Source: a virus. Taken from it: DNA of 64,000 nt. The notes beneath the pieces were generated by a model. The model was not told the origin of the DNA, did not search any database, and worked only from the letters and a program-made list of their open reading frames with translations. Of the stretch, positions 18,347 to 40,271 are shown in pieces. Each line of letters begins with the position of its first letter. The stretch's first letter is position 1. Both the position numbers and the translations under genes were made by a program. The DNA lies in IMG/VR virus record IMGVR_UViG_3300028831_000229, positions 1 through 64,000 of that record, one strand, 5' to 3'.

Positions 18347-19657
18347 ATGCCAGCGACCTCGTCAATGAAGCTGAGCACGACGGGCTACGACTCGACGTTC
18401 CAGCGCAAGATGATCCGCGTCCTGTTCCAAGACCAGGACTTCGTTACCACCACCGCAGCGCATCTGAAGCACGACGTCTTCGACTCGCCCGCCCATCGCT
18501 GGTTGGCGCGCACGATGATCGGCTTCGCCGGCAAGCACGGCCACGGCATCAGCGCAGACGGCTTGAAGCTCGAACGCGATCGAGCCGTCAAGATGAAGAC
18601 GCTCAAGCTCGACCACGCGCAGAAGGTCGACTCGCTGGTCAAGAGCATCGATCGCCCGGTGCCTGACCGCTCCTTCATCAAGGAGGAGCTGTTCCGCTTC
18701 ATCAAGCACCAGGCCATCAACCAGGCGATGCGTAGCTCGCTCGATCACCTCGATCGTCTCGACTTCGAGGCCATCGACCAGGAGTGGGCGCGCGTGCTCG
18801 AGGTCAAGCAGGAGCTTGACGGCGGTCTCGGTCACAGCTTCGTCACCGGCGTAGATGAGCGCACGAAGCGCCGACGCAAGTACGAGAAGAACGGCGTCAG
18901 CAGCGGGACGCAGCTCGACGAGCACATGAAGCCTGGCGGCCTTCCGCCGAAGGCGCTCGGTGTCGTGCTCGCGCCGTCTGGCAAGGGCAAGTCGCACTGC
19001 CTCGTGCACATCGGAGCGAGCGCGATCCTGGAGAGCAACGCGAAGGTTCTCCACATCACGACCGAGCTGAGCGAGGAGATGATCAGCGACCGCTACGACG
19101 CACGGCTCGCCAACATCCCGGTGCAGCGCTTGGAAGAGAAGCGCAAGACGGTGCGCGCCAAGGTTCTCGAGTTGGGCAAGCAGTACGGCGACTTCCTCCG
19201 CATAAAAGAGTTCGCGCCAGCCACGCTCACCGCACGCTCGCTCCGCGCGTTCGTCCGGCAGTTGGAGCGGATCGCGTTCTACCCGACGCTCATCATCATC
19301 GACTCGGCTGACGACATGATCCCGCTGTACGCGTCGCGTGACCACAACGCGTACGACGACTACGGCATGGTGTACCGCGAGCTGCGTGGTCTCGCGTTCG
19401 AGTTGAACATCCCCATCTGGACGGCATCGCAGACCAACAAGGACGCGCTCAACAAGGAGTTCGTCGACTGGAACGCGGTGGCTGACAGCTCGAAGAAGGT
19501 GATGGTCGCGGATGCGGTCGTGATCCTCTTGCAGACGCTCGCGGAGAAGAAGCAGAAAGCCGCCCGGCTCTTCTTCGCGAAGAACAGATTCGGCGGTGAC
19601 AAGTTCGACGTCAAGGTCAGGCTCGACTGGAGCCGTTCAACCATCAGGAGAAGCTGA
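18347..19657 (+). CDS. Replicative DNA helicase, DnaB/gp41-like
   Basis: 436 residues. The N-terminal half is helical, as in DnaB-type proteins. The C-terminal RecA-like ATPase has Walker A 'APSGKGKS' (209-216) and Walker B-type 'LIIIDSADDM'. The segment 'WTASQTNKD' matches the H3 motif of DnaB helicases. The family forms hexamers that unwind DNA ahead of the polymerase and bind primase. A primase gene lies two genes downstream. RBS AGGAGG at 18334-18339. Confidence 0.85.
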   Translation: MPATSSMKLSTTGYDSTFQRKMIRVLFQDQDFVTTTAAHLKHDVFDSPAHRWLARTMIGFAGKHGHGISADGLKLERDRAVKMKTLKLDHAQKVDSLVKSIDRPVPDRSFIKEELFRFIKHQAINQAMRSSLDHLDRLDFEAIDQEWARVLEVKQELDGGLGHSFVTGVDERTKRRRKYEKNGVSSGTQLDEHMKPGGLPPKALGVVLAPSGKGKSHCLVHIGASAILESNAKVLHITTELSEEMISDRYDARLANIPVQRLEEKRKTVRAKVLELGKQYGDFLRIKEFAPATLTARSLRAFVRQLERIAFYPTLIIIDSADDMIPLYASRDHNAYDDYGMVYRELRGLAFELNIPIWTASQTNKDALNKEFVDWNAVADSSKKVMVADAVVILLQTLAEKKQKAARLFFAKNRFGGDKFDVKVRLDWSRSTIRRS

Positions 19658-19658
19658 G

Positions 19659-21971
19659 ATGGAAACGATCGCTGTGCCACGCACCACCACCAACGGTGAC
19701 ACCACCAAGGTCACCGAACCGAACATCAACGAGAACGCGTACAAGGTGCTCAAGGCGCGTTACTTCATCAAGAACGAGCAAGGCGAGGTCGTCGAGACGC
19801 CCAGCCAGCTCATGCACCGTGTGAGCTACGCGATCGCCGAATCGGAAGCGACCGAGCAGGACCGCGGCGTCTACGGCGCGCTCTTCAAGCAGATGCTGAG
19901 CAAGCTCGACTTCCTGCCGAACACGCCGTGCCTCGTCAACGCCGGTCGTCCGGGAGGCACCGGTCAGTACAGCGCGTGCTTCGTCATCCCGGTACCGGAC
20001 TCCATGGAAGGCATCTTCGAGGCCGTCAAGCAGATGGCGCTCGTGCACAAGACCGGTGGCGGCACCGGCTTCAGCTTCAGCCGGCTGCGTCGCAAGGGTG
20101 CGATGGTCAAGACGACGAGTGGCATCGCGAGTGGACCGATCTCGTTCATGGCGCCGTTCAACGCCACCACCGAGACGACGAAGCAAGGCGGCGTTCGGCG
20201 CGGCGCGAACATGGGCATCCTGCGCGTCGACCATCCAGACATCATGGAGTTCATCCGCCTCAAGGCGAATGACGTCAACGCGCTCCAGAACTTCAACGTC
20301 AGCGTCGCCATCACCACGCGCTTCATGGAAGCGCTGGAGCGTGACGAGACCTACGACCTCGTCGACCCGACCACGAAGGAGGTGGTCGGCCAGCTGAGCG
20401 CCAAGGAGGTCATGAACGAGATCGTGCGCTGCGCGTGGACCATCGGTGACCCGGGTCTCTTCTTCATCGACCGCGCGAACGAGCTGGATCCGCTCACCGA
20501 GGTGCTCGGTGAGATCGAGGCGACGAATCCGTGTGGCGAGGTGCCGCTGCGCGCGCACGACGCCTGCACGCTCGGCAGCATCAACCTCTCCAACTTCTTC
20601 GAGCCTGAAGTGGTCACGGGTGATGGTCATGACCACAAGCGCAAGGCCGGCATCAACTACGAGCGTCTGCGCAAGACGGTCAAGCTCGCGGTGCGCTTCC
20701 TCGACAACGTGCTCACGGCGAACAGGTATCCCGTCAAGGAGATCCACGAGGTCACCGCTGCCAGTCGGAAGATCGGTCTCGGCGTGATGGGTTGGGCCGA
20801 GCTGCTCATCAAGCTGGAGCTGCCGTACGCAAGCCAGGAAGCGTACGACCTCGCGTCCTCGCTCATGTCCTTCATCTCGAGAGAGGCGATCGCCGCGAGC
20901 GAAGAACTGGCGACGGAGCGTGGCCCGTTCCCGGCGTTCGCAAAGTCGAAGCATCGCAGCGGTAGGCCACGGCGCAACTCCACGTGCACCGTCATCGCGC
21001 CGACCGGCACCATCTCCATCATCGCTGGCTGTTCGTCCGGCATCGAGCCGCTCTACGCGCTTGGCATGACGCGGCAGCAAGCCGGCATGGAGATGGTCGA
21101 GATCAACCCGTTGCTGGAGGTCGTGGCGAAGAAGCACGGCTTCTGGTCGGACGAGCTGGCTGCGCACGTCGCCAAGACCGGCTCCGTGCAGCAAGCGCCC
21201 GGCGTCCCGGAGCGCTGGAAGCAGATTTTGATGATCGCGAACGAAATCCCTGTGGAAGCGCACATCGCTCACCAGGCCGCGTTTCAGAGGTACGTGGAAG
21301 ACGGCGTGAGCAAGACGATCAACATGCGGCGCGAGGCCACGCAAGACGACGTCCGCGCGGCATACATGCTCGCGTACAGCTCAGGCTGCAAGGGCATCAC
21401 CGTCTACCGTGACGGCTCGCGTGACGGCCAGGTGCTGACGACCGGCACGCAGCAAGCACAGCCGGTGTCTTCGATGGTCAGCGCACCGCTGCACCCGCGA
21501 CGGGTCATTCCGAAGGACGGCTACCGCACCGGCGTGACCATCACCAGGCCGACAGCCTACGGCTCGATCCACGTCACCGTGAACGAGCACCCGGATGACG
21601 GTGAGCCATTCGAGGTCTTCGTGCGGATCGGCAAGGGTGGCAGCGAGGTGAACGCCTGGACGGAAGCCTTCGGTCGCTCGGCGAGCTACCTGTTCTCGCT
21701 GCCGTCACCGACTACGCCGACCGAGCGCGTGGAGATGCTCATCGACCAGCTATCCGGCATCGGTGGCGGCGAGAGCATCGGGCTCGGACCGGATCGCATC
21801 AGCTCCGCTGCGGACGCCATCGCGAACGTGCTGCGTGCCTACCTCACGCGTCGCAACATCAACCACGTCTCAGCGGTGCGCTTCGACTTCTGCCCGCAGT
21901 GTCACCAGGCCACGCTGTCGTTCGAGCAGAAGTGCGGTCTCTGCAAGAACTGCGGCTACAGCAAGTGCTAG
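19659..21971 (+). CDS. nrdJ: Class II (adenosylcobalamin-dependent) ribonucleotide reductase
   Basis: 770 residues from ATG 19659 (RBS AGGAG 19646-19650). Reduces ribonucleotides to make DNA precursors using vitamin B12 as radical source, with no oxygen-dependent small subunit. Clear signs: 'LPNTPCLVNAGRPGGTGQYS' with a redox Cys, 'GGGTGFSFSRLR', 'ATNPCGEVPL' (active-site N-x-C-x-E), 'DGVSKTINM' and the C-terminal Cys cluster 'CPQCHQATLSFEQKCGLCKN'. The cobalamin-dependent type is favoured because no nrdB is nearby and the domain order matches NrdJ. It lies between helicase and primase genes, one base after the helicase stop. Confidence 0.93.
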   Translation: METIAVPRTTTNGDTTKVTEPNINENAYKVLKARYFIKNEQGEVVETPSQLMHRVSYAIAESEATEQDRGVYGALFKQMLSKLDFLPNTPCLVNAGRPGGTGQYSACFVIPVPDSMEGIFEAVKQMALVHKTGGGTGFSFSRLRRKGAMVKTTSGIASGPISFMAPFNATTETTKQGGVRRGANMGILRVDHPDIMEFIRLKANDVNALQNFNVSVAITTRFMEALERDETYDLVDPTTKEVVGQLSAKEVMNEIVRCAWTIGDPGLFFIDRANELDPLTEVLGEIEATNPCGEVPLRAHDACTLGSINLSNFFEPEVVTGDGHDHKRKAGINYERLRKTVKLAVRFLDNVLTANRYPVKEIHEVTAASRKIGLGVMGWAELLIKLELPYASQEAYDLASSLMSFISREAIAASEELATERGPFPAFAKSKHRSGRPRRNSTCTVIAPTGTISIIAGCSSGIEPLYALGMTRQQAGMEMVEINPLLEVVAKKHGFWSDELAAHVAKTGSVQQAPGVPERWKQILMIANEIPVEAHIAHQAAFQRYVEDGVSKTINMRREATQDDVRAAYMLAYSSGCKGITVYRDGSRDGQVLTTGTQQAQPVSSMVSAPLHPRRVIPKDGYRTGVTITRPTAYGSIHVTVNEHPDDGEPFEVFVRIGKGGSEVNAWTEAFGRSASYLFSLPSPTTPTERVEMLIDQLSGIGGGESIGLGPDRISSAADAIANVLRAYLTRRNINHVSAVRFDFCPQCHQATLSFEQKCGLCKNCGYSKC

Positions 21972-27763: not shown

Positions 27764-28441
27764 ATGGCATACACCATTCGGATCCCGCTGGACCAAGAAG
27801 CTCTCAAGGAGCATCACTTGCCCACCACCAACGTGACGCTCGCACCAGCGGTCACGATCGACAAGCTCGGCATCGACATCTCAGGTCTGATGCACAAGCA
27901 TTACAACCTCGGCGACTGGAAGACCCACTACACGAAGGCGAAGAAGCTCGGCTCGGTCTTCGTGATCGAGATGCGCAACATCCGCCTCAAGGAAGACGCC
28001 CGCAAAGCGTACTGCGGCCAGCACGCCGGTCCGTGTGTGGCGGCACGTCCGCGCAGGCGCGATGGTTCTCCCAGGCCGCTGCCGAAGTCCTGCTACCTCG
28101 AGTCGGCGGACTGGATCAAGCTGCACAACATGATCAACGTCGTGCTCGACCTCCACCAGGTGAAGGCCGAAGTCTTCTCCACCCGCGTGGACATGTTCCA
28201 CGCGGTCGGCTGCTCCAAGAACAAGTTCCTCATCCGGTCACCTGACCTCGGCGGTCGAAAGCGCTACGACTACATCGATGGCGCTGGACCGAACGCGTTC
28301 CGTCCGCACTACCTCTTCGACCCTGGTCAGCCGTGCCAGTTCGGAGAGCACCTGTCCTACGGCGACGAAGCCGACGTGTCGGAGCTGCGCCAGGTGGCGC
28401 GCGTCGACTCGTGGAAAAACCAAGTGGTCGCCACGCATTGA
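27764..28441 (+). CDS. Hypothetical protein, 225 residues
   Basis: ATG 27764 after AAAGGAGATG (27750-27759). Mixed alpha/beta with 'DWIKLHNMINVVLDLHQVKA' and a few Cys/His residues. It ends where the next promoter begins: the -35 TTGACA overlaps its stop codon. No recognised family. Confidence 0.55.
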   Translation: MAYTIRIPLDQEALKEHHLPTTNVTLAPAVTIDKLGIDISGLMHKHYNLGDWKTHYTKAKKLGSVFVIEMRNIRLKEDARKAYCGQHAGPCVAARPRRRDGSPRPLPKSCYLESADWIKLHNMINVVLDLHQVKAEVFSTRVDMFHAVGCSKNKFLIRSPDLGGRKRYDYIDGAGPNAFRPHYLFDPGQPCQFGEHLSYGDEADVSELRQVARVDSWKNQVVATH

Positions 28442-28483
28442 CACGTCTCCGCGTAGCGTGTTACGCTACGTAGAACACGTCAA
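28438..28483 (+). promoter_or_regulatory. Promoter with embedded inverted repeats before the ATPase operon
   Basis: TTGACA (28438-28443), 18-bp spacer, TACGCT (28462-28467). The inverted repeat CGTAGCG-TGTTA-CGCTACG (28452-28470) overlaps the -10 region. TTGAC (28438-28442) and GTCAA (28479-28483) frame it as an outer pair. This is the layout of a repressor-controlled promoter and it precedes the 28507-35749 gene block. Confidence 0.55.
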
Positions 28484-28506
28484 CCAACGTGCCACGAGAA
28501 GAGAAG

Positions 28507-29706
28507 ATGGTGGAAAGACGCAGAGCCGTGCGTTTGCGCGTCGTATACCGGCGCGTCCATTGTCCGTTCGGTCGCAACCCGTACAGCGACGCGTTCCGAG
28601 AGAAGGAGCTGGTGGAGAACGGCGGCTGGCGTGAGCGTGGTGAGACGCTTGATCCTCGGTACCGCACCAGCGGACCGATTGCGAGCGCCTTGACGTGTGA
28701 AGGACCCGACCAGGCGGCGGAGGAGGTCTTCGGACCGTTCACGTTCCTCCACAACTGCTACTTGGACAGCTCGATGCCGGAGCACCCGTGCTTCGGTTGC
28801 AAGCAAGCCAAGAAGTGGCGCACGTCGCTCGGTCTTCGTACCTTCCGCGTCGTGACCGAGTTGACGCACGTCAACACGCTAGGTCAGCCGCATCAAGACC
28901 ACCCGATGCAGGTGGTCTACTTGCCGCTCAACCAGGAAGGCACCGAGTGGTACGCGATGAACGCGTTCACCGGCGAACGGAAAGAGGTGGTGCGATCCGT
29001 AGTGGAGCACCGCCGCGAAGACGGCACGCTCATCACGACGACCTACCCGCGGCGCACGCCGCTCGGTAACGACCTGGAGCAGGACGTCGACACGCTGGAC
29101 CGTGAAGCGTGCGATGCTCAGCTCAAGCGAGGCGGCATGTTCAACGTGCCGTCACATGGTCCCGTGTGGAGCGGTGTCGAGTCACGAACCAAATGGAGGT
29201 GCGCGTGTGCAACGTGCACAGGACAGGAGCAGAAGATGATCAAAGAGAAGATGAGTCCGCAGGAAGTTGAAGACGCCGTGCGCGCGCTGAACGTCAACGC
29301 GCACGGCATCCGCAAGAGCGCTCACGACTACCCGAGCGCACCGGCCACGCCGGTCACCATGAACCGGAAGCCGACGCCGGAGCCGAAGCTGGCGATCGCT
29401 GAGATGTTCAAGAAGGACAAGACGCCGGCAGTCGGCGAGGTCTGGCGCCCGGAGCCCGGCAAGAATCAGGTCCGCGTGGTGCCGCTCGACCTCTCGAAGA
29501 AGACGCCGAAGAAGCACGCGGCCGAGAAGCTCCGCAGGCAGAGCCAAGGCGACGACTACGTCACGCCGTCCCAGGCGCTGTCAGAGGGCTTTCGTACGAT
29601 GACTGACAAGCCGAAGACGCTGGCGCTGGCGTCTTCGGTCAAGAAGACCAGCGCCACGTCCGCAACGCCACCCGTGAAGACCAAGGACGGTCGGAGGAAG
29701 AAATGA
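28507..29706 (+). CDS. Hypothetical protein at head of the MoxR/VWA block
   Basis: About 399 residues from ATG 28507 (purine-rich leader GAGAAGAGAAG; an in-frame GTG at 28489 is the alternative). The N-terminal half has conserved-looking Cys/His pairs ('CPFGRNPY', 'HPCFGCKQAKKW') and 'CACATC' near residue 240. The C-terminal half is Lys/Pro-rich and probably unstructured. It overlaps the AAA+ ATPase gene by 4 bp, so it may belong to that machine. No family recognised. Confidence 0.55.
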   Translation: MVERRRAVRLRVVYRRVHCPFGRNPYSDAFREKELVENGGWRERGETLDPRYRTSGPIASALTCEGPDQAAEEVFGPFTFLHNCYLDSSMPEHPCFGCKQAKKWRTSLGLRTFRVVTELTHVNTLGQPHQDHPMQVVYLPLNQEGTEWYAMNAFTGERKEVVRSVVEHRREDGTLITTTYPRRTPLGNDLEQDVDTLDREACDAQLKRGGMFNVPSHGPVWSGVESRTKWRCACATCTGQEQKMIKEKMSPQEVEDAVRALNVNAHGIRKSAHDYPSAPATPVTMNRKPTPEPKLAIAEMFKKDKTPAVGEVWRPEPGKNQVRVVPLDLSKKTPKKHAAEKLRRQSQGDDYVTPSQALSEGFRTMTDKPKTLALASSVKKTSATSATPPVKTKDGRRKK

Positions 29707-30875
29707 CTGCCGCGAAGGCTGCGAAGGTTGCTTGCCGCATCTGCAAGCGCGAGGAGCATATCCTCGTTGACCACATCACCAAGAAGCACGACACCGATCC
29801 AGTGGCGTACCTGGACAAGTACCCGGGCGCGCCGCTCTGGAGCACGTACGGTCTCCAGAAACTCAAGGAGATCCACAACGGCAGCGCCGTGGTCACCGCA
29901 ACGCCGCGTCCTCGGCGCAAGGTCGCCATGAAGAAGCTCTTCCCCGACTTCGGCAAGAAGTCCGGCCTGGAGCTGGTCGGCGACTACGAGGTGTTCGACA
30001 CGCCTGGTCCGCTGACTCCGAAGCGTGATCCGTATTTCCTCTTCCCGGAGGAGACCACGCTCGACTTCCTGCCGATCATCGAGCTGCCGTCGCGCAACCG
30101 CGTCTACATCCAAGGACCGCCCGGCACTGGCAAGTCCACGTTCGCCTTCCAGGTCGCGGCGGTCTTGAACGCCGAGATGCTGGAGTGGAACGCGGACGCG
30201 TTCATCCAGCGCTCCACGCTGATCGGCCAGTACCTGGTCATCAACGGCGAGACTGTCTGGGTGGATGGCATCCTGCCGCGCGCGATGCGCGGTGGCTACT
30301 GGCTCGTGATCAACGAGGTCGACATGCTCGACCCGTTGACCATGAACATCCTCAAGCCTGTCTTGGAGGATCCGCCGCGCTTGACCATCCTCGAGCACGG
30401 CGGTGAGATCGTCTACGCGCATCCAGACTTCCGCATCATCGCATGCGCGAACACCTGGGGTCGTGGCGACTCGACTGGCATGTTCGTCAACGCGCAGACG
30501 CACAGCATGGCCGACACGAACCGCTGGGCGCTGAAGCTGCGCATGAACTACCTCGACAAGGACGACGAGGCGCAGCTGCTCCGCAACTACTTCCCTGGTC
30601 GCCTTGGTGACGAGGAGAAGGAGGAGTCACCGAAGGACTCGCCCGAGAAGTTCATCGCGGTGGCCACGAAGGTGCGCGAGGCGCAGCAAGCTGGCAAGAT
30701 CGACTACACTGTGAGCCCTCGCGAGCTGGTCAACTGGGTCGAGAAGTACCTCGTGCTCGGCAAAGGCGTGCACCACGCCGCGCGCCGCACTTTCCTCGAC
30801 GCCTTGGAGCCGGACGTGAGCCACGCGATCCTCGAGTACATCAACGCCGAGTTCGGACAGGAGACGACGCCATGA
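29703..30875 (+). CDS. MoxR/CobS-type AAA+ ATPase with N-terminal zinc finger
   Basis: 390 residues. A zinc finger opens the protein (C11, C14, H24, H29) with a trailing 'YLDKYPGAPL' as in Ros/MucR-like fingers. The AAA+ core has Walker A 'GPPGTGKST' (138-146) and a Walker B-type segment 'WLVINEVDMLD' (about 200-210) in which the usual Asp before Glu is Asn. 'ACANTWGRGD' fits the sensor 1 region of CobS/MoxR proteins. MoxR ATPases work with VWA-domain partners to insert metals or remodel complexes. A CobT-like VWA gene lies two genes downstream, so this is a matched pair. Confidence 0.85.
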   Translation: MTAAKAAKVACRICKREEHILVDHITKKHDTDPVAYLDKYPGAPLWSTYGLQKLKEIHNGSAVVTATPRPRRKVAMKKLFPDFGKKSGLELVGDYEVFDTPGPLTPKRDPYFLFPEETTLDFLPIIELPSRNRVYIQGPPGTGKSTFAFQVAAVLNAEMLEWNADAFIQRSTLIGQYLVINGETVWVDGILPRAMRGGYWLVINEVDMLDPLTMNILKPVLEDPPRLTILEHGGEIVYAHPDFRIIACANTWGRGDSTGMFVNAQTHSMADTNRWALKLRMNYLDKDDEAQLLRNYFPGRLGDEEKEESPKDSPEKFIAVATKVREAQQAGKIDYTVSPRELVNWVEKYLVLGKGVHHAARRTFLDALEPDVSHAILEYINAEFGQETTP

Positions 30876-31075
30876 GCAAGATCAACATCAGCGGTCGCAG
30901 CGATCGCATGCAGCCCCGTACGCAGAACATCCCACTTCGCACCGACCTCGGCTCGAAGCTCCGCGCCGCGTTGATCGCGCAGCCGGCGGCTCGTGTGCTG
31001 GCGAAGGCCGACTACGCCGGCCTGGAGACAGCCATGCTCGCCAAGATGAAGGAGGAGGCCCGTGGCGGCAGGTAG
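30872..31075 (+). CDS. Orphan fragment resembling motif A of family A DNA polymerase
   Basis: 67 residues with its own ATG (ATGA overlap with the ATPase gene). The sequence follows the PolA palm pattern: 'GRSDRMQPRTQNIPLRTDLG' corresponds to the T-G-R...Q-N-I-P-x-R-T segment, and 'AKADYAGLETAMLA' to motif A (D47-Y-x-x-x-E52). Nothing else of a polymerase is present and the gene ends 14 residues later. It differs strongly from the same region of the full polymerase at 36098, so it is not a recent copy. It could be a relic or a small protein that mimics the palm. Confidence 0.65.
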   Translation: MSKINISGRSDRMQPRTQNIPLRTDLGSKLRAALIAQPAARVLAKADYAGLETAMLAKMKEEARGGR

Positions 31076-31637
31076 CAGCCAACCGATGCACGCGTACCTC
31101 GTGAACGAGGATGAGAACAAGCAGTTCTTCATCGCCGTCCTCATGAACGAGCGCGACAACGATCAGTGGACGGTCTACACCGCCTGGGGGTTCACTGACT
31201 CGCACACGGTGCGTGGCGAGAAGGAGTACAACGGCGGCAAGGGCGGCGACAAGTTCTCCGGTCAGCGCAACGCAGAGGCGTACGCTGGCGCCATCTTGAA
31301 GACGAAGCAAGGCGACGGATTCAAGGTGCGTCCGAACGACGACGTCGAAGGCGAGCGTCCGATGTGGTGGGAGCAATGCGTCGAGCGCGGTGGTGAGCGC
31401 TACGGCGGCAAGGCGCCGGTGACCAAGCCGGTCGGTCTCAGCAAGACGAAGAGCCCGCCTCCGGTCTCGACCAGAGACATCACCACGCTCAAGGAGCGCA
31501 TGGCAGCCAAGGTGAAGATCGAGGCAGGCAAGGCCAAGATCGCCATCAAGCAGGACGGCAGCCAGGACTCAGAACCCGAACAACCGAAGCGCGTCATCCA
31601 GCCGCGGTTCGGCTTCGCACCGAGGAAGCAGCCATGA
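31062..31637 (+). CDS. WGR-like domain protein in the MoxR/VWA block
   Basis: 191 residues from GTG 31062, overlapping both neighbours. Residues about 8-90 recall the WGR fold: a 'QWTVYTAWGFTDS' core, then 'NAEAYAGAILKTKQGDGFKV', the A-x-x-x-F-x-x-x-x-x-x-K-x-x-x-G-Y-like ending. WGR domains occur in PARPs and in bacterial proteins encoded with MoxR ATPases and VWA proteins (MolR/YehI-type neighbourhoods). The C-terminal half is Lys/Pro-rich. The domain call is from pattern only and needs a profile search. Confidence 0.55.
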   Translation: MAAGSSQPMHAYLVNEDENKQFFIAVLMNERDNDQWTVYTAWGFTDSHTVRGEKEYNGGKGGDKFSGQRNAEAYAGAILKTKQGDGFKVRPNDDVEGERPMWWEQCVERGGERYGGKAPVTKPVGLSKTKSPPPVSTRDITTLKERMAAKVKIEAGKAKIAIKQDGSQDSEPEQPKRVIQPRFGFAPRKQP

Positions 31638-34015
31638 CCGCAGCACCGGCTGTCTCGTCACGCAAGCGCGAGGCGTTGAACATCTCCATCGAGGACTTCA
31701 AGTCCGGGATGGAGAAGTTCGCCATGATGTTCACCGGCAACTACGGCGTGCAGCTCGTGTTCCGCGGCACGTCCGCGTACACGAACGGCAAGATCATCGT
31801 GGTGCCGGAGTTGAGCCTGCTCTCGCGCCCGAACATGACCGATGCCGAGATCGATGAAGCGCTCGAGTTCCTGATGTGCACGCGTGGCTTCGTCTACCAC
31901 GAAGGCGCGCACATCATCTTCAGTGGTGACATCACGTCGATCGTCCGATCGGCGATGCGCGTCAGCCCGAAGTTCAAGCATCTGTGGAACGTCATCGAAG
32001 ACCTGCGTGTCGAGAACAGCATCGCCAATCTGTACCCGGGTGCTCGCGAAGCGCTGGTCTTCATGAACGACTGGTTGCAGACCAGCATCGCCAAGAAGCT
32101 GGAAGCCGCTGGTGGTACGCTCTCACCGTTCGCGGCCACCTGTTACGCGATCGGGCTCATCGGCACGCTGTCAGGTCGCGGTGAAGACCACCAGCTGTGG
32201 TCGATGCTGAACGAGCAGACTCGCGAGTACGTGACCAGCATCCGCAAGCTGGTGATGCGTGCACGCAACGCGCAGAGCCCCAAGGTGGCGTACAAGATCG
32301 CGCTGGAGATCTGGAACCACCTGAAGGACGAAGAGGAGCGACGGAAGCAGGAGAAGAAGCGCCAGCGGGACGAAGAGAAGGCCAAGGCCGGCAAGAAGAC
32401 CAAGAAGGAGAAAAGCGATGGCAAGAGCAAGCGCAAGCCCAAGAAGCCCAAAGCTTCGTCCAAAGACGACGAAGGCGAGGACGACGACGCGTCCGGTGGC
32501 GCTCCTCTGGACGAAGACGACACCGACCAGGACGACGCTTCAGACGGCGGTGACGACGACGATGCCGGAGATGATTCTTCTGGAGATGAGGAGGGCGCTG
32601 AAGGAGACGGTGACGACGATGAATCTGCCGATGACGAAGGCGACGACGACGGTGACGGTGACGATCACGGTGACGGAGGACGAGGAGATGACGACGGAGA
32701 CGATGCCGCTACCGAAGAAGCGCCGGAGCCGGACCCTGCGCTAGATGCCGACGAGCAACTCGTTGGTGATGAAGCCGACGAGTCCGACAAGGCCGAGGAG
32801 AAGGAAGAGACCATCCGCGAGCGGATGAAGAACGAGGTCAAGCAGACGCTCGCGGTCGGCGAGCGGCGGTACCGTGTCTACACCACGGAGCACGATGTGA
32901 TCGGACCACCGCCCAAGCCGCCCAGCGATGACGACCTGCAACGCTACCGGCAGTTCGTCAACCGGCTCGATGAGGAGACCCGCTTCGCATACGGACCGGT
33001 GAAGCGCCAGCTCGAGAACCTCCTCAAGGCGCAGACGCACTCGTTCTACATCCACGGCCTCGACGCCGGAGAGCTGGACCCGGCAGCCCTCCACAGGCTA
33101 GCATCGGCGGCCAATGGTGGTCCGCAGATGAAGGCTCAGGCGCAGTACGTCTTCCGTGAGAAGGTGCGCGCGAAGAGCCTCAAGAGCACCGATGTCGAGA
33201 TCGTGATCGATGTCAGTGGCAGCATGGGGTGTGCAGGCAAGGACGTCTCGCTCTGGCACTGCCAGCAGTGCGACACCGAAGCCGAGCACCTGGTGGTGCC
33301 GCCGTCCATCGACTACTATCACTTCAGCGCTGCTCACCGGCTGGAGCTACCGAAGACGCACACGCACGAGTGCCCGTCGTGTGGGGTGATGACGCTCCAC
33401 AAGCTGGTGAAGGCCCCGGAGTGGGAAGCGAAGATCTCGCTCGCACGGAAGTGCGCGCTGGTCTTCGCTCACTCGCTGGAGTCCGTGCATGTGCCGTTCG
33501 ACATGTACACCTACACGACCGAAGATCCCGGGATGTCGGAGCGCGTGCTGGAGGAGATCCGCGACCGCTCCGTGGACGAGTACAACGAGGTGCGCCAGCT
33601 CTACTCGCGGTTCGGCGGTCTTCACATCATGGACATCAAGCGCTTCGATGAGCGCTGGGCGAACGTGATGTGGAGGCTTGCGCACGTCAACGCCGCGATG
33701 TGCAACTACGACGGCGAGTCGCTGCGGATCGGCGCGCAGCGGCTGATGGCGCGACGCAGCCAACGCAAGGTGATGTTCGTCCTGTGCGACGGCATCCCTG
33801 GTCCGTGCGCAAGCGAGTCGACGGAAGCGCACCGGCTGTACCTGCACGACGTGGTCAAGGAGATCCGCAGCGCCACGCCGATCGAGATCGTGTGCATCGG
33901 AATCGGTGCGCCGGAGGCTGCGGAGTTCTACAACCCGGGGTATGTCAACGTGATGAACGCCAAACAGCTCCCGGCGATCTGCATCCAGCAACTCAAACGC
34001 GTGTTGCTTCAGTAA
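31634..34015 (+). CDS. CobT-like protein: metallopeptidase-like and VWA domains
   Basis: 793 residues. The N-terminal domain contains an H-E-x-x-H zinc motif (HEGAH, 89-93) and a downstream 'NVIEDLRVE' (119-127) that may supply the third ligand, as in CobT-type and related peptidase-like domains. Residues about 230-400 are a Lys-rich then very acidic linker. The C-terminal VWA domain has an intact MIDAS (DVSGSM, 526-531), but a zinc-ribbon-like insert follows it (C543-x2-C546 ... C580-x2-C583). Partner of the MoxR ATPase; the complex would couple ATP hydrolysis to remodelling or metal insertion. The target is unknown. Confidence 0.8.
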   Translation: MTAAPAVSSRKREALNISIEDFKSGMEKFAMMFTGNYGVQLVFRGTSAYTNGKIIVVPELSLLSRPNMTDAEIDEALEFLMCTRGFVYHEGAHIIFSGDITSIVRSAMRVSPKFKHLWNVIEDLRVENSIANLYPGAREALVFMNDWLQTSIAKKLEAAGGTLSPFAATCYAIGLIGTLSGRGEDHQLWSMLNEQTREYVTSIRKLVMRARNAQSPKVAYKIALEIWNHLKDEEERRKQEKKRQRDEEKAKAGKKTKKEKSDGKSKRKPKKPKASSKDDEGEDDDASGGAPLDEDDTDQDDASDGGDDDDAGDDSSGDEEGAEGDGDDDESADDEGDDDGDGDDHGDGGRGDDDGDDAATEEAPEPDPALDADEQLVGDEADESDKAEEKEETIRERMKNEVKQTLAVGERRYRVYTTEHDVIGPPPKPPSDDDLQRYRQFVNRLDEETRFAYGPVKRQLENLLKAQTHSFYIHGLDAGELDPAALHRLASAANGGPQMKAQAQYVFREKVRAKSLKSTDVEIVIDVSGSMGCAGKDVSLWHCQQCDTEAEHLVVPPSIDYYHFSAAHRLELPKTHTHECPSCGVMTLHKLVKAPEWEAKISLARKCALVFAHSLESVHVPFDMYTYTTEDPGMSERVLEEIRDRSVDEYNEVRQLYSRFGGLHIMDIKRFDERWANVMWRLAHVNAAMCNYDGESLRIGAQRLMARRSQRKVMFVLCDGIPGPCASESTEAHRLYLHDVVKEIRSATPIEIVCIGIGAPEAAEFYNPGYVNVMNAKQLPAICIQQLKRVLLQ

Positions 34016-34027
34016 GGAGACGAGGTC

Positions 34028-35131
34028 ATGAGCTACAAGAGTGACGCAGAAGCCTACTACTCGGAGCACTACAAGGGCCGTGGCCTGGCTCCGAAGCACG
34101 TGATCGGCTTGAAGGACGCCATCGCCAAGGCGCTGAAGAAGGGCGAGAAGCCCGCCAGCGCGGCCAAGGCGTTCTTCAAGGAGAAGGAGATCACACTCAC
34201 CGACAAGCCGGCCGACAAGCCGGCGAAGGAGGACAAGAAGAAGGAGAAGACGAGCAAGGAGCAGACGAGCAAGAAGAATGGCAAGGCGCCGGTCGACGCC
34301 GATGCTCAGGAGGAGACGAGCGACCAGGAAGAGGAGGCTCCGAAGAAGCGGAGCAAGGACACCAAGATGACGGTGGTGCCGTTGCCCGCCGTGGAGGTCA
34401 CCAAGATGGATAGGAAGTCGCTGAAGGCGACCATCGCGCAGCTCAAGGAAGCTGGCGTCAACATCGAGTACGACAAGAAGGACGAGGACGACGTGCTCCG
34501 GCGGCGTATCAACGACGCCATGCAGGCGCTGCCCTCGCCCAAGATGCTCTCCATGCTGGAGAACATCGAGCCGAGCAAGCTCAAGGAGGTGCTGGATCGC
34601 GACTGCTTCGGCATCTTCATCGACATCCGTTCGGCCAGCTGCATGGCGTGCCCGGATGTCGAGACGTGCACCAAGGAGTACCTGAAGAACCTCAAGGGGG
34701 ACTTCAAGGTGTTCCGCCCCGCAATGCAGGAGATCAAGGCAGAGGAGTCGGCTGCCTTGGTCACGGAGGATCAAGTGAAGAAGGCAACGAAGAAGGCGAA
34801 GGAACAGAAGAACGAGAAGCCCTCGGACGAGCCGAAGGCGAAGAAGGTCAAGTGGGATCCGGACCGCTTCATCGCGGTCATCGACGTCGACATCAAGACG
34901 CTCGACAAGGACCACGAGACCTACCAGACGCTCAAGGCGGTCTTCAAGGAGGTGCCCGGCACGTTCGCCGAGCTGCGTGAGATCGTCGAGCGCGAGTACG
35001 ACCTGGCCGGCGACGAGTCGTTCGTCAAGGACTGGGTGCTCGGTCTGCGCAAGCTCGGCTACATCAAGCTCGAAGCCGACCTCGATGACGACGAGCGCAA
35101 GGCGTACGTGGAGGCCGGCCTCCTGAAGTAG
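34028..35131 (+). CDS. Hypothetical Lys/Glu-rich protein with C-terminal winged-helix-like region
   Basis: 367 residues. ATG 34028 after AAGGAGACGAGG. Residues 40-120 are a charged disordered tract. Residues about 200-215 hold Cys spacing 'SCMACPDVETC', possibly metal-binding. The C-terminal 80 residues ('ETYQTLKAVFKEVPGTFAEL', 'FVKDWVLGLRKLGYIKLEAD') look like a small helical or winged-helix domain. It follows the VWA gene by 12 bp and is probably part of the same block. Confidence 0.55.
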   Translation: MSYKSDAEAYYSEHYKGRGLAPKHVIGLKDAIAKALKKGEKPASAAKAFFKEKEITLTDKPADKPAKEDKKKEKTSKEQTSKKNGKAPVDADAQEETSDQEEEAPKKRSKDTKMTVVPLPAVEVTKMDRKSLKATIAQLKEAGVNIEYDKKDEDDVLRRRINDAMQALPSPKMLSMLENIEPSKLKEVLDRDCFGIFIDIRSASCMACPDVETCTKEYLKNLKGDFKVFRPAMQEIKAEESAALVTEDQVKKATKKAKEQKNEKPSDEPKAKKVKWDPDRFIAVIDVDIKTLDKDHETYQTLKAVFKEVPGTFAELREIVEREYDLAGDESFVKDWVLGLRKLGYIKLEADLDDDERKAYVEAGLLK

Positions 35132-35135
35132 ACAC

Positions 35136-35153
35136 GGCGCGAGCGATCGCGCC
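35136..35153 (+). promoter_or_regulatory. GC-rich hairpin between genes
   Basis: GGCGCG-AGCGAT-CGCGCC: six-base arms with a six-base loop, 4 bases after the stop of the 34028 gene. No U-tract follows, so it is not a standard intrinsic terminator. It could protect the 3' end of the message or weaken read-through. Confidence 0.35.
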
Positions 35154-35203
35154 ATCACATCCAACAGTTTCGCAAGCAATCTCAACCGTACGGAGACAAG
35201 ACC

Positions 35204-35749
35204 ATGGCCAAGAACGACAAGACCGAGAAGAAGAGCAAGACCCCGTTCGTCGTCACCTTCCCGATGCAGGGCACCCTGCTCGTGCAGGCGACCAGCAAGG
35301 AGACGGCGCTCGACGCCGCCAAGGAGCGGCTGCCGGAGATCCTCAAGAGCGTCGGCGGTTTGCTGGTGAACATCAGCGGCGACCCCACGCTCCTGGTCAC
35401 CGCAGGCGACACCGCGTCTCCGAAGAAGGAGAAGGCCAAGGCCGAGAAGGAGTCCGACTCGGACGACGATGATGATGACGACGAGGACGACGAGGACGAG
35501 GACGAGGAGGGCGAGGACGACGACTCGGATGATGACGACGAGGACGACGACTCCGATGACGACGAGGAGGAGTCCGACGACGATGACGACGACTCGGACG
35601 ATGACGACGAGGACGAGGATGGCGAGGACGACGATGACGACGATGACGAGGAGGAGAAGCCCGCCAAGTCGTCCAAGAAGAGCGACAAGAAGCCGGCCGC
35701 TGGCAAGCCGAAGGTGAAGATCAAGCTGCCCGGCAAGGCCAAGAAGTAG
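35204..35749 (+). CDS. Protein with very long acidic Asp/Glu tract
   Basis: 181 residues. A short globular start (residues about 13-70, 'TPFVVTFPMQGTLLVQATSK', alpha/beta) is followed by about 70 residues of almost only Asp and Glu, then a basic Lys-rich tail. The tract is encoded by GAC/GAT/GAG repeats and is prone to slippage. Acidic tracts of this type mimic DNA or bind basic proteins. Its place after the MoxR/VWA genes suggests a partner or substrate; the function is unknown. Confidence 0.65.
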   Translation: MAKNDKTEKKSKTPFVVTFPMQGTLLVQATSKETALDAAKERLPEILKSVGGLLVNISGDPTLLVTAGDTASPKKEKAKAEKESDSDDDDDDDEDDEDEDEEGEDDDSDDDDEDDDSDDDEEESDDDDDDSDDDDEDEDGEDDDDDDDEEEKPAKSSKKSDKKPAAGKPKVKIKLPGKAKK

Positions 35750-36097: not shown

Positions 36098-38425
36098 ATG
36101 TCCAGATCACCAGTCGAGTTCGCCGATACCAAGAAGAAAGCCCGTCGCTTCATGGACGAGCTGTACAAGGAGGCGTACCTCAACCGCCTCGACACGGCGA
36201 TGGACACCGAGTTCGACTTCAAGACGAACCAGATCGCCTTGATGTCGTACTCCTGGGGTCCAGGCATCCGCCGCGTCGTGCAAGGCGACCTCGTGTTGCC
36301 TCACTTCGGCGACTGGCTCGTGGACGACCAGTCGAAGATCGTCTACCAGAACCTCAAGGCCGACAAGGAGGTTATGGAAGAGGCCGGCATCGATGTCGTA
36401 CCCAGCTTCTACGCTGACATCATGATCACCGGCTGGCTTCATGACGAGACGCTCATGAAGCACGACCTCAAGACGCAGAGCGAGCACTGGTTGAAGGACC
36501 CGGATGCTCCAGCGAAGCCGTGGAGGCGAAAGCCGTACCAGCACCTCTTCGCCTACGTGCCGGAAGGCAAGAAGACGCCGATCGTAATGACGCCGTTCCA
36601 GGTGCTCTACGATCTGCCGCCCGATGCGCTGCGTAACGCCTTGAAAACACCAGGCGTGAAGTCCAAGAAGATCCCACCGACCACGGAGCCGCGCACGCGC
36701 GAGCAGTGGTTGCAGCTGATGCTCGACTACTCGGGTGACGACGCCGAGAGCACGGTGCTCAACCACCACGTACACAAGAAGTACCTCAAGCGCATCGGCT
36801 ACTGGAAGAACTACCTCGCGATCGACAGACCGTACACGCTCACGCTCCTCGCTCAGTCCGACCGCGGCGTGCTACTCGACATCCCGCGACTCAAGGTCAT
36901 CCTCCGCAAGATGGACGTGAAGATCATGCGCGCGGAGCGTGTGTTCCGAGCGTTAGCCGGCAACCCGAAGCTCAACCTGCGCAGCGGACCGCAGATGCAG
37001 GAGCTGCTCATCAACGAGTGGGGTTGGCCGGTGCGTGACGACTTCAAGACGGCGACCGGCGCAGCGAAGCTCAACAAGGAGGCGATGTACTGGTGGAGCG
37101 AAGAAGGCTACGAGATGGCCGACGTCAAGCTGGAGTTCAACAACGCTGCCACGATGAAGGGCACGTTCCTCCAAGGCTTGATCAACGGTGTCAGTGACGA
37201 CGGTCGCCTGCGTTCGGACTTCAACCAGATCGGCGCACGCACCGGTCGCATTTCTTCGCGGAAGGGCGTTGAGGAGGTCGAGGAGGAGTACACGCTGAAG
37301 AACGGCGTCACCAAGACGCGCACCAAGAAGGTGAAGGTCGGCGCGAACCTCCAGAACATCCCGAGCCGGAAGGAGAAGGATCCGGACGGCATCCGTGGTG
37401 CCTTCATCGCACCGAAGGCTGGACAGATCACAGCGTGGGGCGACGTGGCGGACGAAGACCACGTGCTCATCGTCTGCGACTTCAGCGGCTTCGAGCTGTG
37501 CATGGCGATTCACTGGGCGTCCAGCCTGGTGAAGGACTCGCCGATGCTCAAGGTGATGCACAAGTACGGTTCGCCGAGCGCGTGCCACGCGTTCACCGCG
37601 ATCAACCTCTACGCCGAGCACGTTCACCGCTGCGACTCCAGCTGCTACGAGGTTGACAAGAAGACCAAGCTCGTGGTGATGGGCGCAGACGGCAAGCCGG
37701 TCTTCAAGAAGTTCCACGCCGACGGTCAGAAGATCAAGCTCGGCAAGATCAAGATGGACGACTGGAAGATGGTGAAGGCGCTCTTCCCTGACCAGTACCT
37801 CATCTCGAAGAACAACAACTTCAACCTGCTGTACGGCGGCTCGCCCAAGATGATGGCGCGGCTTCGCGGTCTCGACTTCCGAGACGAGGCGGTGCTGGAC
37901 GAGTGTCGCGAGCAGGCGCAGGCATGGAACGACCTCTACCAGGAGATCCCGATCTACCAGCGCTTCATGGTGGACCACGGTTACGAAGAAGGCTGGGTCC
38001 CAGTGCTCGGCGGCTGGCACGCGAACGTCGCGAACGGTCTCGCAGGCAAGGACAGCAACGGCAAATTCGTCTCGGACGAGGACAAGCGCAAGCGTCTCAT
38101 CGCTCACTGGGAACGCGTGTGCATGAACACGCCGTGCCAAGGCAGCGCGAGCTGGATCGTGAAGATGGCGCAGATCCTGTGCGAACGTGATCAGCGTCTT
38201 CGCGAGATGCGTTGCGCGCAGCTGTTCCCGGTGCACGATGAGCTGGTCTTCGAGGTGCCGAAGCGCTTCGCGCAGGAGTGCCTGCCGATCGTGATCGGCA
38301 ACATGAAGAAACCGTTCGCTCCTGGTTCGAGCGGCAAGAAGCATCCCAAGCCTCACGAGGAACTCGCCTTCCTGATGGACGTGGAAGGCATGATCGGTGA
38401 GAACTGGTTGCAAGCGAAGGGCTAA
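36098..38425 (+). CDS. Family A DNA polymerase with 3'-5' exonuclease-like region
   Basis: 775 residues; the phage replicative polymerase. The N-terminal part has 'AMDTEFDF', the D-x-E of exonuclease motif I, with diverged later exo motifs. The polymerase core has motif A D461-F-S-G-F-E466, motif B K571-x7-Y579-G ('KNNNFNLLYGG') and motif C 'VHDEL' (712-716), all the catalytic residues expected. An insert of about 50 residues with Cys/His ('HVHRCDSSCYEV') lies between motifs A and B. No 5'-nuclease domain. SSB, RecA and primase genes are nearby. Confidence 0.92.
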   Translation: MSRSPVEFADTKKKARRFMDELYKEAYLNRLDTAMDTEFDFKTNQIALMSYSWGPGIRRVVQGDLVLPHFGDWLVDDQSKIVYQNLKADKEVMEEAGIDVVPSFYADIMITGWLHDETLMKHDLKTQSEHWLKDPDAPAKPWRRKPYQHLFAYVPEGKKTPIVMTPFQVLYDLPPDALRNALKTPGVKSKKIPPTTEPRTREQWLQLMLDYSGDDAESTVLNHHVHKKYLKRIGYWKNYLAIDRPYTLTLLAQSDRGVLLDIPRLKVILRKMDVKIMRAERVFRALAGNPKLNLRSGPQMQELLINEWGWPVRDDFKTATGAAKLNKEAMYWWSEEGYEMADVKLEFNNAATMKGTFLQGLINGVSDDGRLRSDFNQIGARTGRISSRKGVEEVEEEYTLKNGVTKTRTKKVKVGANLQNIPSRKEKDPDGIRGAFIAPKAGQITAWGDVADEDHVLIVCDFSGFELCMAIHWASSLVKDSPMLKVMHKYGSPSACHAFTAINLYAEHVHRCDSSCYEVDKKTKLVVMGADGKPVFKKFHADGQKIKLGKIKMDDWKMVKALFPDQYLISKNNNFNLLYGGSPKMMARLRGLDFRDEAVLDECREQAQAWNDLYQEIPIYQRFMVDHGYEEGWVPVLGGWHANVANGLAGKDSNGKFVSDEDKRKRLIAHWERVCMNTPCQGSASWIVKMAQILCERDQRLREMRCAQLFPVHDELVFEVPKRFAQECLPIVIGNMKKPFAPGSSGKKHPKPHEELAFLMDVEGMIGENWLQAKG

Positions 38426-39270: not shown

Positions 39271-39317
39271 CGACCGTAATGCCCTTTGAGGCCGGATGGT
39301 CCATCAGGAGAATGAAC

Positions 39318-40271
39318 GTGAAGAAGGACAAGTCGAAGAAGAAGTCGAAGAGCGGTGGTGACGATGACCTGCGCAAGATGCGCGAGCGCCACCAGCGCCT
39401 CAAGGAGCGCTCGGAGAACCCCGGTGGCGGAGGCGGAGAGAAGCGCTTCGATGAACTGAAGGTCGGCAAGAACCTGCGTCGTGTGCTGCCGCGGCTCGTG
39501 GACGGCAAGATCAACCCGCAGTTCTACACAGAATCGTTGATGCACTTCAAGGTCGGTCCGAATCAGTGGACCGTCCGGTGCATCGGCGACAAGTTCATCG
39601 ACAAGAAGTCAGGACGTCCGACGCCCGGCACGCCGTGTCCGATCTGCAAGAAGTTCCTGAAGGAGCAGGATCGGGTCAACAGCGAGTACGGCAAGGGCGA
39701 CGAGGAAGGCAAGCACGAGTGGAAGAAGGCGAAGGAAGCCTACTGCCCACGCGTCCGCTACTACTTCAACGTCATCGACGGCGAAGGCGAGGTCAAGCTC
39801 CACAGCTGCGGCGACCAGATCATGGAGCAGCTTCTCGGCTATTTCTTCGAGGACGACTCCGACGTCGGTGACTTCACCGCGGTCGACGGCGGCTCGTGGA
39901 TGAACTTCAAGCGCATCGGGGACGGCCGGAACACGAAGTACAAGGTCTTTCCCGGTGACCCGGCTCCGATCGAAGACCAGTGGGACACCGTCAAGGACAT
40001 GCTCCACGATCTCGAGGCTGCCAAAGGCGAGGTGCGCACCGCCGAACAGATCGTCAACATCATGAAGGGCGTCAAGGAGGAGGACGACGAGTCCGACGAC
40101 TCCAGCGATGACGAAGAGGAGGAGGAGGACGAAGACGAGGAGCAGGAAGACGACGAGAGCGAGGAGGAAGCGGAGGACGATGACGAGGACGACGAAGACG
40201 AGCGCCCCATCAAGTCCTCCAAGCTGAGCAAGAAGATGAAGTCGAAGCTCAAGAAGAAAAGCAGGAGGTAA
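39318..40271 (+). CDS. ssDNA-binding protein, gp32-like, with acidic tail
   Basis: About 317 residues. AGGAG (39306-39310) is best spaced for GTG 39318; ATG 39312 and ATG 39279 are in-frame alternatives. A basic N-terminus leads into a core with 'GKNLRRVLPRLVDG' and a zinc-binding-like segment ('GTPCPICKKFLKEQD' with Cys/His further on), as in T4 gp32. Residues about 255-300 are Asp/Glu-rich, the region that recruits partners in SSB proteins. A basic tip follows the acidic stretch, which is unusual. Coats single-stranded DNA in replication and recombination. Confidence 0.75.
   Translation: MKKDKSKKKSKSGGDDDLRKMRERHQRLKERSENPGGGGGEKRFDELKVGKNLRRVLPRLVDGKINPQFYTESLMHFKVGPNQWTVRCIGDKFIDKKSGRPTPGTPCPICKKFLKEQDRVNSEYGKGDEEGKHEWKKAKEAYCPRVRYYFNVIDGEGEVKLHSCGDQIMEQLLGYFFEDDSDVGDFTAVDGGSWMNFKRIGDGRNTKYKVFPGDPAPIEDQWDTVKDMLHDLEAAKGEVRTAEQIVNIMKGVKEEDDESDDSSDDEEEEEDEDEEQEDDESEEEAEDDDEDDEDERPIKSSKLSKKMKSKLKKKSRR

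Follow-up and report, generated by a model that had tools for sequence, protein, structure and literature searches.

A CobS-like ATPase, a probable WGR protein and a CobT-like protein encoded together in the replication region of a tailed phage

The gene block and its CobS-like and CobT-like products

Positions 29703-34015 of a tailed-phage genome hold a block of overlapping genes for a CobS-type AAA+ ATPase, a probable WGR-domain protein and a CobT-type protein. The stretch analysed, referred to below as the window, is the first 64,000 nucleotides of the IMG/VR virus record IMGVR_UViG_3300028831_000229, which has 117,941 bases (a genome of about 118 kb). The block comprises four open reading frames (ORFs), in the order cobS-like, DNA polymerase A fragment, WGR candidate and cobT-like, with successive overlaps of 4, 14 and 4 bp: the polymerase fragment shares 4 bp with cobS and 14 bp with the WGR gene, which in turn shares 4 bp with cobT. 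A first-pass annotation, made from the letters of the window, had described three genes overlapping by 4 to 14 bp. The overlaps are real, but they exist only through a fourth ORF, 30872-31075, which that annotation had overlooked. As read from the sequence, purine-rich stretches resembling ribosome-binding sites precede the starts in the block, whose features are the following.

29703-30875, plus strand: CobS-type AAA+ ATPase of the MoxR/chelatase clade, 390 residues (phrog_249, E 2e-47; TIGR01650 CobS, 130.7 bits; AAA_5, E 1.7e-22)
29733-29789, plus strand: N-terminal zinc-finger residues C11, C14, H19, H24 and H29 (CxxC...H..H, by comparison with related phage CobS)
30114-30137, plus strand: Walker A, GPPGTGKS, residues 138-145 (motif reading)
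Residues 201-207 of the CobS-like protein, plus strand: Walker B, LVINEVD, with INE in place of DE (motif reading)
30872-31075, plus strand: stand-alone 67-residue ORF corresponding to the motif A region of a family A DNA polymerase (GR...QNIPLRT...KADYAGLE; DNA_pol_A, E 6.5e-9, profile positions 117-173 of 381; phrog_12116)
31062-31637, plus strand: probable diverged WGR-domain protein, 191 residues, domain at about residues 10-92 (PF05406, BLASTP, AlphaFold2/Foldseek)
31634-34015, plus strand: CobT-type co-chaperone, 793 residues, with zincin-like N-terminus, acidic linker and VWA-MIDAS (phrog_1576, E 1e-69; CobT_C, E 4.7e-17; partial TIGR01651)
31898-31912, plus strand: zincin motif HEGAH, residues 89-93 (HExxH conserved in relatives)
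31988-32002, plus strand: NVIED, residues 119-123, downstream of HEGAH, putative third ligand
32450-32833, plus strand: acidic linker, residues 273-400, 48% aspartate or glutamate (composition)
33209-33226, plus strand: MIDAS, DVSGSM, residues 526-531 (motif reading)
33227-33424, plus strand: zinc-ribbon-like insert immediately behind the MIDAS loop, CxxC at 543-546 and 580-583 (motif comparison)

The profile of PHROG 249 ('porphyrin biosynthesis') and the two Walker motifs together place the ATPase in the CobS type, and the zinc-finger AAA+ protein recognised in the first-pass annotation is confirmed. Its score against the NCBIfam CobS model TIGR01650 nevertheless falls far under the cut-off of 558.6 bits. 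Among known structures in the PDB, the profile of the phage CobS family matches Midasin, CobS, CbbQ and NorQ. The zinc-finger N-terminus is common to the 'ADEYDFA' type of phage CobS, found in Rhizobium phages, Salmonella phage SSU5, Stenotrophomonas phage BUCTxx99 and many IMG/VR contigs; its cysteines are degenerate or lost in some related phage CobS proteins, and the cyanophage type ('LLLDEVD') has no N-terminal zinc finger. Over the full length, identity of the window CobS with related phage CobS proteins reaches about 28% at most, and the protein forms a very long branch in the CobS tree, which makes its position there unreliable. Single-protein IMG/VR searches with the window CobS, WGR, CobT and PolA returned zero relatives, and a comparison of the window CobS with genome contigs gave one weak match, which was not used. 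The phage is thus isolated, and there is therefore no close comparison to be made.

The 793-residue product carries HEGAH and a VWA MIDAS, as had been noticed at first reading, and its CobT_C match is above the cut-off, so that with the MIDAS it qualifies as a CobT-type VWA protein. The match to TIGR01651 is partial (74.4 bits against a cut-off of 759 bits). HEGAH is followed downstream by NVIED, the arrangement of a zincin, in which the NxxED pattern would be the site of a further zinc ligand. Of the 66 phage CobT ORFs that reach 550 residues or more, 63 have the HExxH motif; in a cellular CobT (9uka) it is missing in the weakly aligned stretch. The insert in the VWA domain adds about 66 residues, and only the window protein has it among the phage CobT proteins inspected. 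In several relatives (loci L017, L018, L028 and L087), cobT is split into two adjacent ORFs. A phage CobT also finds matches in more than 1000 plasmids, most of them from Klebsiella and Escherichia; for several of those listed, the annotation reads cobalamin or porphyrin biosynthesis.

The WGR candidate

The gene between the two, 31062-31637, starts with GTG, preceded by AAGGAGGAGG, which resembles a ribosome-binding site. The first-pass annotation had called its product WGR-like. When the whole 118-kb record was searched with PF05406, the single match fell at exactly this gene and covered nearly the full domain (positions 4-76 of 79; 9.2 bits, E 0.17). In a single BLASTP comparison, the protein matched the annotated WGR protein of Rhizobium phage RHph_N1_10 with an E of 0.001, and a hidden Markov model (HMM) of the phage WGR domain scored it highest of the 457 ORFs of the window. 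An AlphaFold2 model shows the order of strands, helix and strand that is found in WGR, with block-mean pLDDT (predicted local distance difference test) values of 73-85 in its better parts, and the top PDB match of this model in Foldseek is the WGR domain of PARP3 (2EOC; E 0.013, probability 1.00). In a control model made from the single sequence, free of homologues, the order of elements is unchanged; PARP3 WGR is the third match, and no other match listed has a probability as high (0.21).

Several observations weigh against this identification. In hmmscan searches of Pfam, PHROGs and NCBIfam, no WGR match was found for the protein (at E up to 1 in Pfam), and the PF05406 score is below the curated cut-off of 22 bits. 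Eight of about 2000 shuffles scored above the protein on the phage WGR-domain HMM, and hhalign to the phage WGR family gave an E of 0.045 and a probability of 1.2; the HMM of that family did not detect the window protein at full length. The alignment behind the AlphaFold2 model included phage WGR relatives, and the homologue-free model is poor (pLDDT 44). These figures would suit the view that 31062-31637 is no WGR protein, lies there by chance, and that only the known CobS/CobT-like pair matters. This view, to which we give little credence, has to contend with the position of the single PF05406 match, the rank of the protein among the ORFs of the window, the fold match to PARP3 in both models and the presence of WGR in related phages. 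Scores, models and gene context taken together, the product of 31062-31637 is in our view very probably a WGR protein, but this part of the first-pass annotation is less well supported than the identification of the ATPase and of the VWA protein.

The phage WGR family matches the WGR domains of PARP1, PARP2 and PARP3, and that of PARP2 bridges 5'-phosphorylated DNA ends (PMC8190142). A C-terminal [FYW]-G-x-[FW] motif is conserved in phage WGR proteins (L092-L104), and PRFGF is found close to the C-terminus of the window protein (31602-31616); this is possibly a docking tail. The CobT and WGR alignments are too diverse for pattern scans.

The three families in other phages

The proteins of the block belong to the same families as those of the phage cobST genes in RHph_X66, RHph_N1_10, SSU5, BUCTxx99 and cyanophages. 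The zinc-finger CobS is shared with the group of Rhizobium phages, SSU5 and BUCTxx99, and WGR with the Rhizobium phages. The gene order differs. In nearly all loci having both genes, cobT comes before cobS, and the WGR gene, if present, lies apart: about 5 kb before cobT-cobS in RHph_N1_10, where it encodes a protein scoring 60 bits beside the primase and near DNA ligase, and 5-6.5 kb upstream of cobT in most other zinc-finger CobS phages that have it. The window is reversed, with the order cobS, polymerase fragment, WGR, cobT. The three genes sought in other phages after the first-pass annotation do recur, but nearly always with cobT before cobS.

A CobT match was found in ten Rhizobium phage records, and all ten also carry WGR in the same region; these records represent a few lineages only. 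Four WGR queries (three of them from IMG/VR), run against 50,697 phage records, matched only these ten Rhizobium phages, all of them cobT-positive, and no member of the phage WGR family was found in the cobT-less records of that collection. Of 39 IMG/VR records that have a CobS relative, 13 match WGR (E no higher than 1.5e-4; 11 of these pass the cut-off), and the positive records fall in several branches that lie apart in the CobS tree. A scan starting from WGR yielded eight IMG/VR loci, with cobT in all eight and cobS in seven, the eighth ending first. That scan is biased, five of its loci being seed records and three not; the search of the phage collection is less so.

It speaks against an invariable trio that WGR could not be detected in many zinc-finger CobS phages (SSU5, BUCTxx99, G016, G018, G020 and G039), and WGR is therefore not obligatory; the cyanophage-type CobS records searched had none either. 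According to the first-pass annotation, a three-part assembly would have to be given up if 31062-31637 had no WGR match and related phages carried CobS and CobT only. The Rhizobium and IMG/VR counts go the other way, but many relatives do lack a detectable WGR. What had been said to set the block apart from a simple chelatase pair holds in one half: WGR recurs with the pair, but the zinc finger is common to this whole subfamily of phage CobS. In the window, the genes for zinc-finger CobS, CobT and WGR share a strand within the replication region. Compared with the other trios, that of the window is extreme and rearranged, with the order cobS-WGR-cobT, 4-bp overlaps and a zinc-ribbon insert in the VWA domain. 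Although its CobS sits on a very long branch and its gene order departs from the usual, cobS, WGR and cobT lie together with 4-bp overlaps, which argues for a common function.

Setting among replication genes and possible function

The plus-strand gene run around the block, as read from profile scans, encodes mainly replication and recombination proteins, and the placement of the block in the replication region given in the first-pass annotation is borne out.

16011, plus strand: DNA helicase
19596-21971, plus strand: B12-dependent (class II) ribonucleotide reductase NrdJ (NCBIfam match over the cut-off)
about 22000, plus strand: primase
36098-38425, plus strand: full PolA
38788, plus strand: UvsY-like protein
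39279-40271, plus strand: SSB
40567, plus strand: RecA
46355, plus strand: SbcD
48920, plus strand: SbcC

The explanation that we favour, and to which we give an even chance of being right, is that the products of the operon make up a machine of three parts, targeted to DNA and working in the manner of MoxR and Midasin on phage replication or recombination intermediates, and not in cobalt chelation. We infer a machine because the three families are found together again in distant phages, and a role on DNA because the genes sit among those of replication and recombination. MoxR-VWA pairs are remodelling chaperones (PMC7159879). The CobS-like protein, whose AAA+ fold is evident from its sequence, would form a ring as CobS and MoxR do, and its zinc finger might contact DNA or a partner. 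The CobT-like protein would dock on this ring through its VWA-MIDAS and acidic linker and present the substrate, as work on CobS/CobT and MoxR suggests, and its zincin domain, to judge from the HExxH motif, may cleave that substrate. The WGR protein, like its PARP counterparts, would bring the complex to DNA nicks or ends. The assembly would then clear away or rebuild the protein complexes that sit on intermediates of phage replication or recombination, a site suggested by the replication setting. Association of the proteins, DNA binding and proteolysis are all predictions. The loss of HExxH from the CobT relative of BUCTxx99 (L007:6012-7997) counts against this explanation. In many other phages, too, relatives of the three are likely to work as a single machine for protein remodelling on phage DNA, and not in vitamin B12 synthesis.

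A more specific version, which we put forward as a tentative and rather doubtful idea, is a phage unfoldase-metalloprotease, sent by WGR to nicked or broken DNA, that would strip or degrade proteins stuck there and be a viral analogue, in its working, of the p97/SPRTN type of clearance, which frees DNA of bound proteins. If this is true, such an enzyme is present in many tailed phages and phage-plasmids under the present annotation of B12 genes. Phage cobS/cobT pairs are widely reported and routinely taken as B12 synthesis genes; the recurrent WGR, the retained zincin and the lack of CobN argue that at least the zinc-finger branch acts otherwise, probably on DNA. The CobS/CobT-like pair is already known, but its link with WGR appears to be undescribed: in the open-access literature searched, no paper connects CobS-like, CobT-like and WGR proteins. 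As the Rhizobium phages are cultured, the trio is directly testable.

The aerobic cobaltochelatase CobNST shares a CobS-like ATPase and a CobT-like VWA subunit with the window, and the genome encodes a B12-dependent NrdJ, which weighs against our proposal and would fit chelation. The phage CobS and CobT might then join a host CobN and make B12 for NrdJ; an auxiliary role of viral cobST with host CobN has been proposed (PMC8651126). However, CobN (PF02514) was not found in the 118-kb record or in 25 others, and a search for a cobalamin riboswitch found none. Among these 26 records, NrdJ is over the cut-off in the window only; RHph_X66, BUCTxx99 and SSU5 encode the alpha and beta subunits of class I, B12-independent reductases. 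The cellular CobT compared lacks, in its weakly aligned stretch, the HExxH of phage CobT, and both equivalog cut-offs are far missed. The plasmids with cobT relatives come in many cases from E. coli and Klebsiella. E. coli is not known to make B12 de novo. Chelation would also leave WGR unexplained. Cobalt chelation by the phage pair is therefore unlikely; help to a host CobN keeps a small probability for this one phage, which does have NrdJ.

The closest published likeness is the MoxR and metallopeptidase-vWA pair of group 2.2 jumbo phages (PMC7824862), tailed phages in which, as here, an AAA+ gene adjoins that of a VWA protein with an N-terminal metallopeptidase. The window adds the zinc finger of the ATPase, the WGR between the genes and the zinc-ribbon insert in the VWA domain, in a genome of about 118 kb. 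A role in virion assembly was proposed for that pair, and a similar one for the tail of an archaeal virus, so that ATPase and peptidase-VWA protein might assemble or process structural proteins, WGR being an unrelated neighbour; the retention of HExxH in nearly all of the larger phage CobT ORFs could be counted in favour of an assembly protease. However, the genes sit with replication or recombination genes, and not with structural ones, both in the window and in those relatives that were read, and WGR accompanies the pair across distant phages. We consider this alternative unlikely.

The same paper mentions phage WGR only as a MolR-like transcription factor. The trio might accordingly serve transcription or host takeover, with WGR as a DNA-binding regulator and the AAA+/VWA pair remodelling RNA polymerase or host regulators, and genes resembling sigma-70 do adjoin cobS in Rhizobium and Stenotrophomonas phages. 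But a sigma factor was not found in the window operon, and the comparable mix in E. coli, yehF/yehL/yehP, has no established target; such a role has very little likelihood in our estimation. The E. coli cluster yehF/yehI/yehL/yehM/yehP/yehQ (WGR, MoxR, VWA, SWIM) does resemble the window in uniting WGR, a MoxR-family ATPase and VWA; in gene content, it differs in being cellular, in its extra SWIM and DUF4132 proteins and, going by its annotation, in its ATPase and VWA subfamilies. The MoxR-vWA ternary systems (PMC7159879) likewise combine a MoxR-clade ATPase, VWA and a third component, but there this component is VMAP, iSTAND, FtsH or a beta-propeller, and WGR goes unmentioned in the text of that paper. 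In Midasin/Rea1, as in our proposal for the window, an AAA ring is coupled to an acidic linker and a MIDAS domain.

The trio had been credited with its own palindromic promoter, and this claim has to be dropped. The palindrome CGTAGCGTGTTACGCTACG (28452-28470, no strand assigned, from an inverted-repeat scan) lies 1.2 kb upstream of the trio, before another gene. Its sequence is unique when no mismatch is allowed, but 41 perfect inverted repeats of 8 bp with loops of 0-8 can be counted in the window, this one included. A scan of 28300-35300 found no sigma-70-like promoter; the palindrome is a candidate operator only. The gene that it precedes (28507-29706, plus strand) belongs to the same operon and has no convincing family match. 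The 4-bp overlap of its stop with the start of cobS makes translational coupling of the two probable.

PADLOC gave weak IetA-type AAA matches only and no defence system. The 67-residue polymerase piece spans the region from GR to motif A, whose D and E are retained, and is separate from the full PolA; it may be a remnant, or else a small protein that has a role of its own. Two very acidic products, with runs of aspartate and glutamate, are encoded nearby: a 181-residue protein (35204-35749) and the C-terminal tail of SSB.

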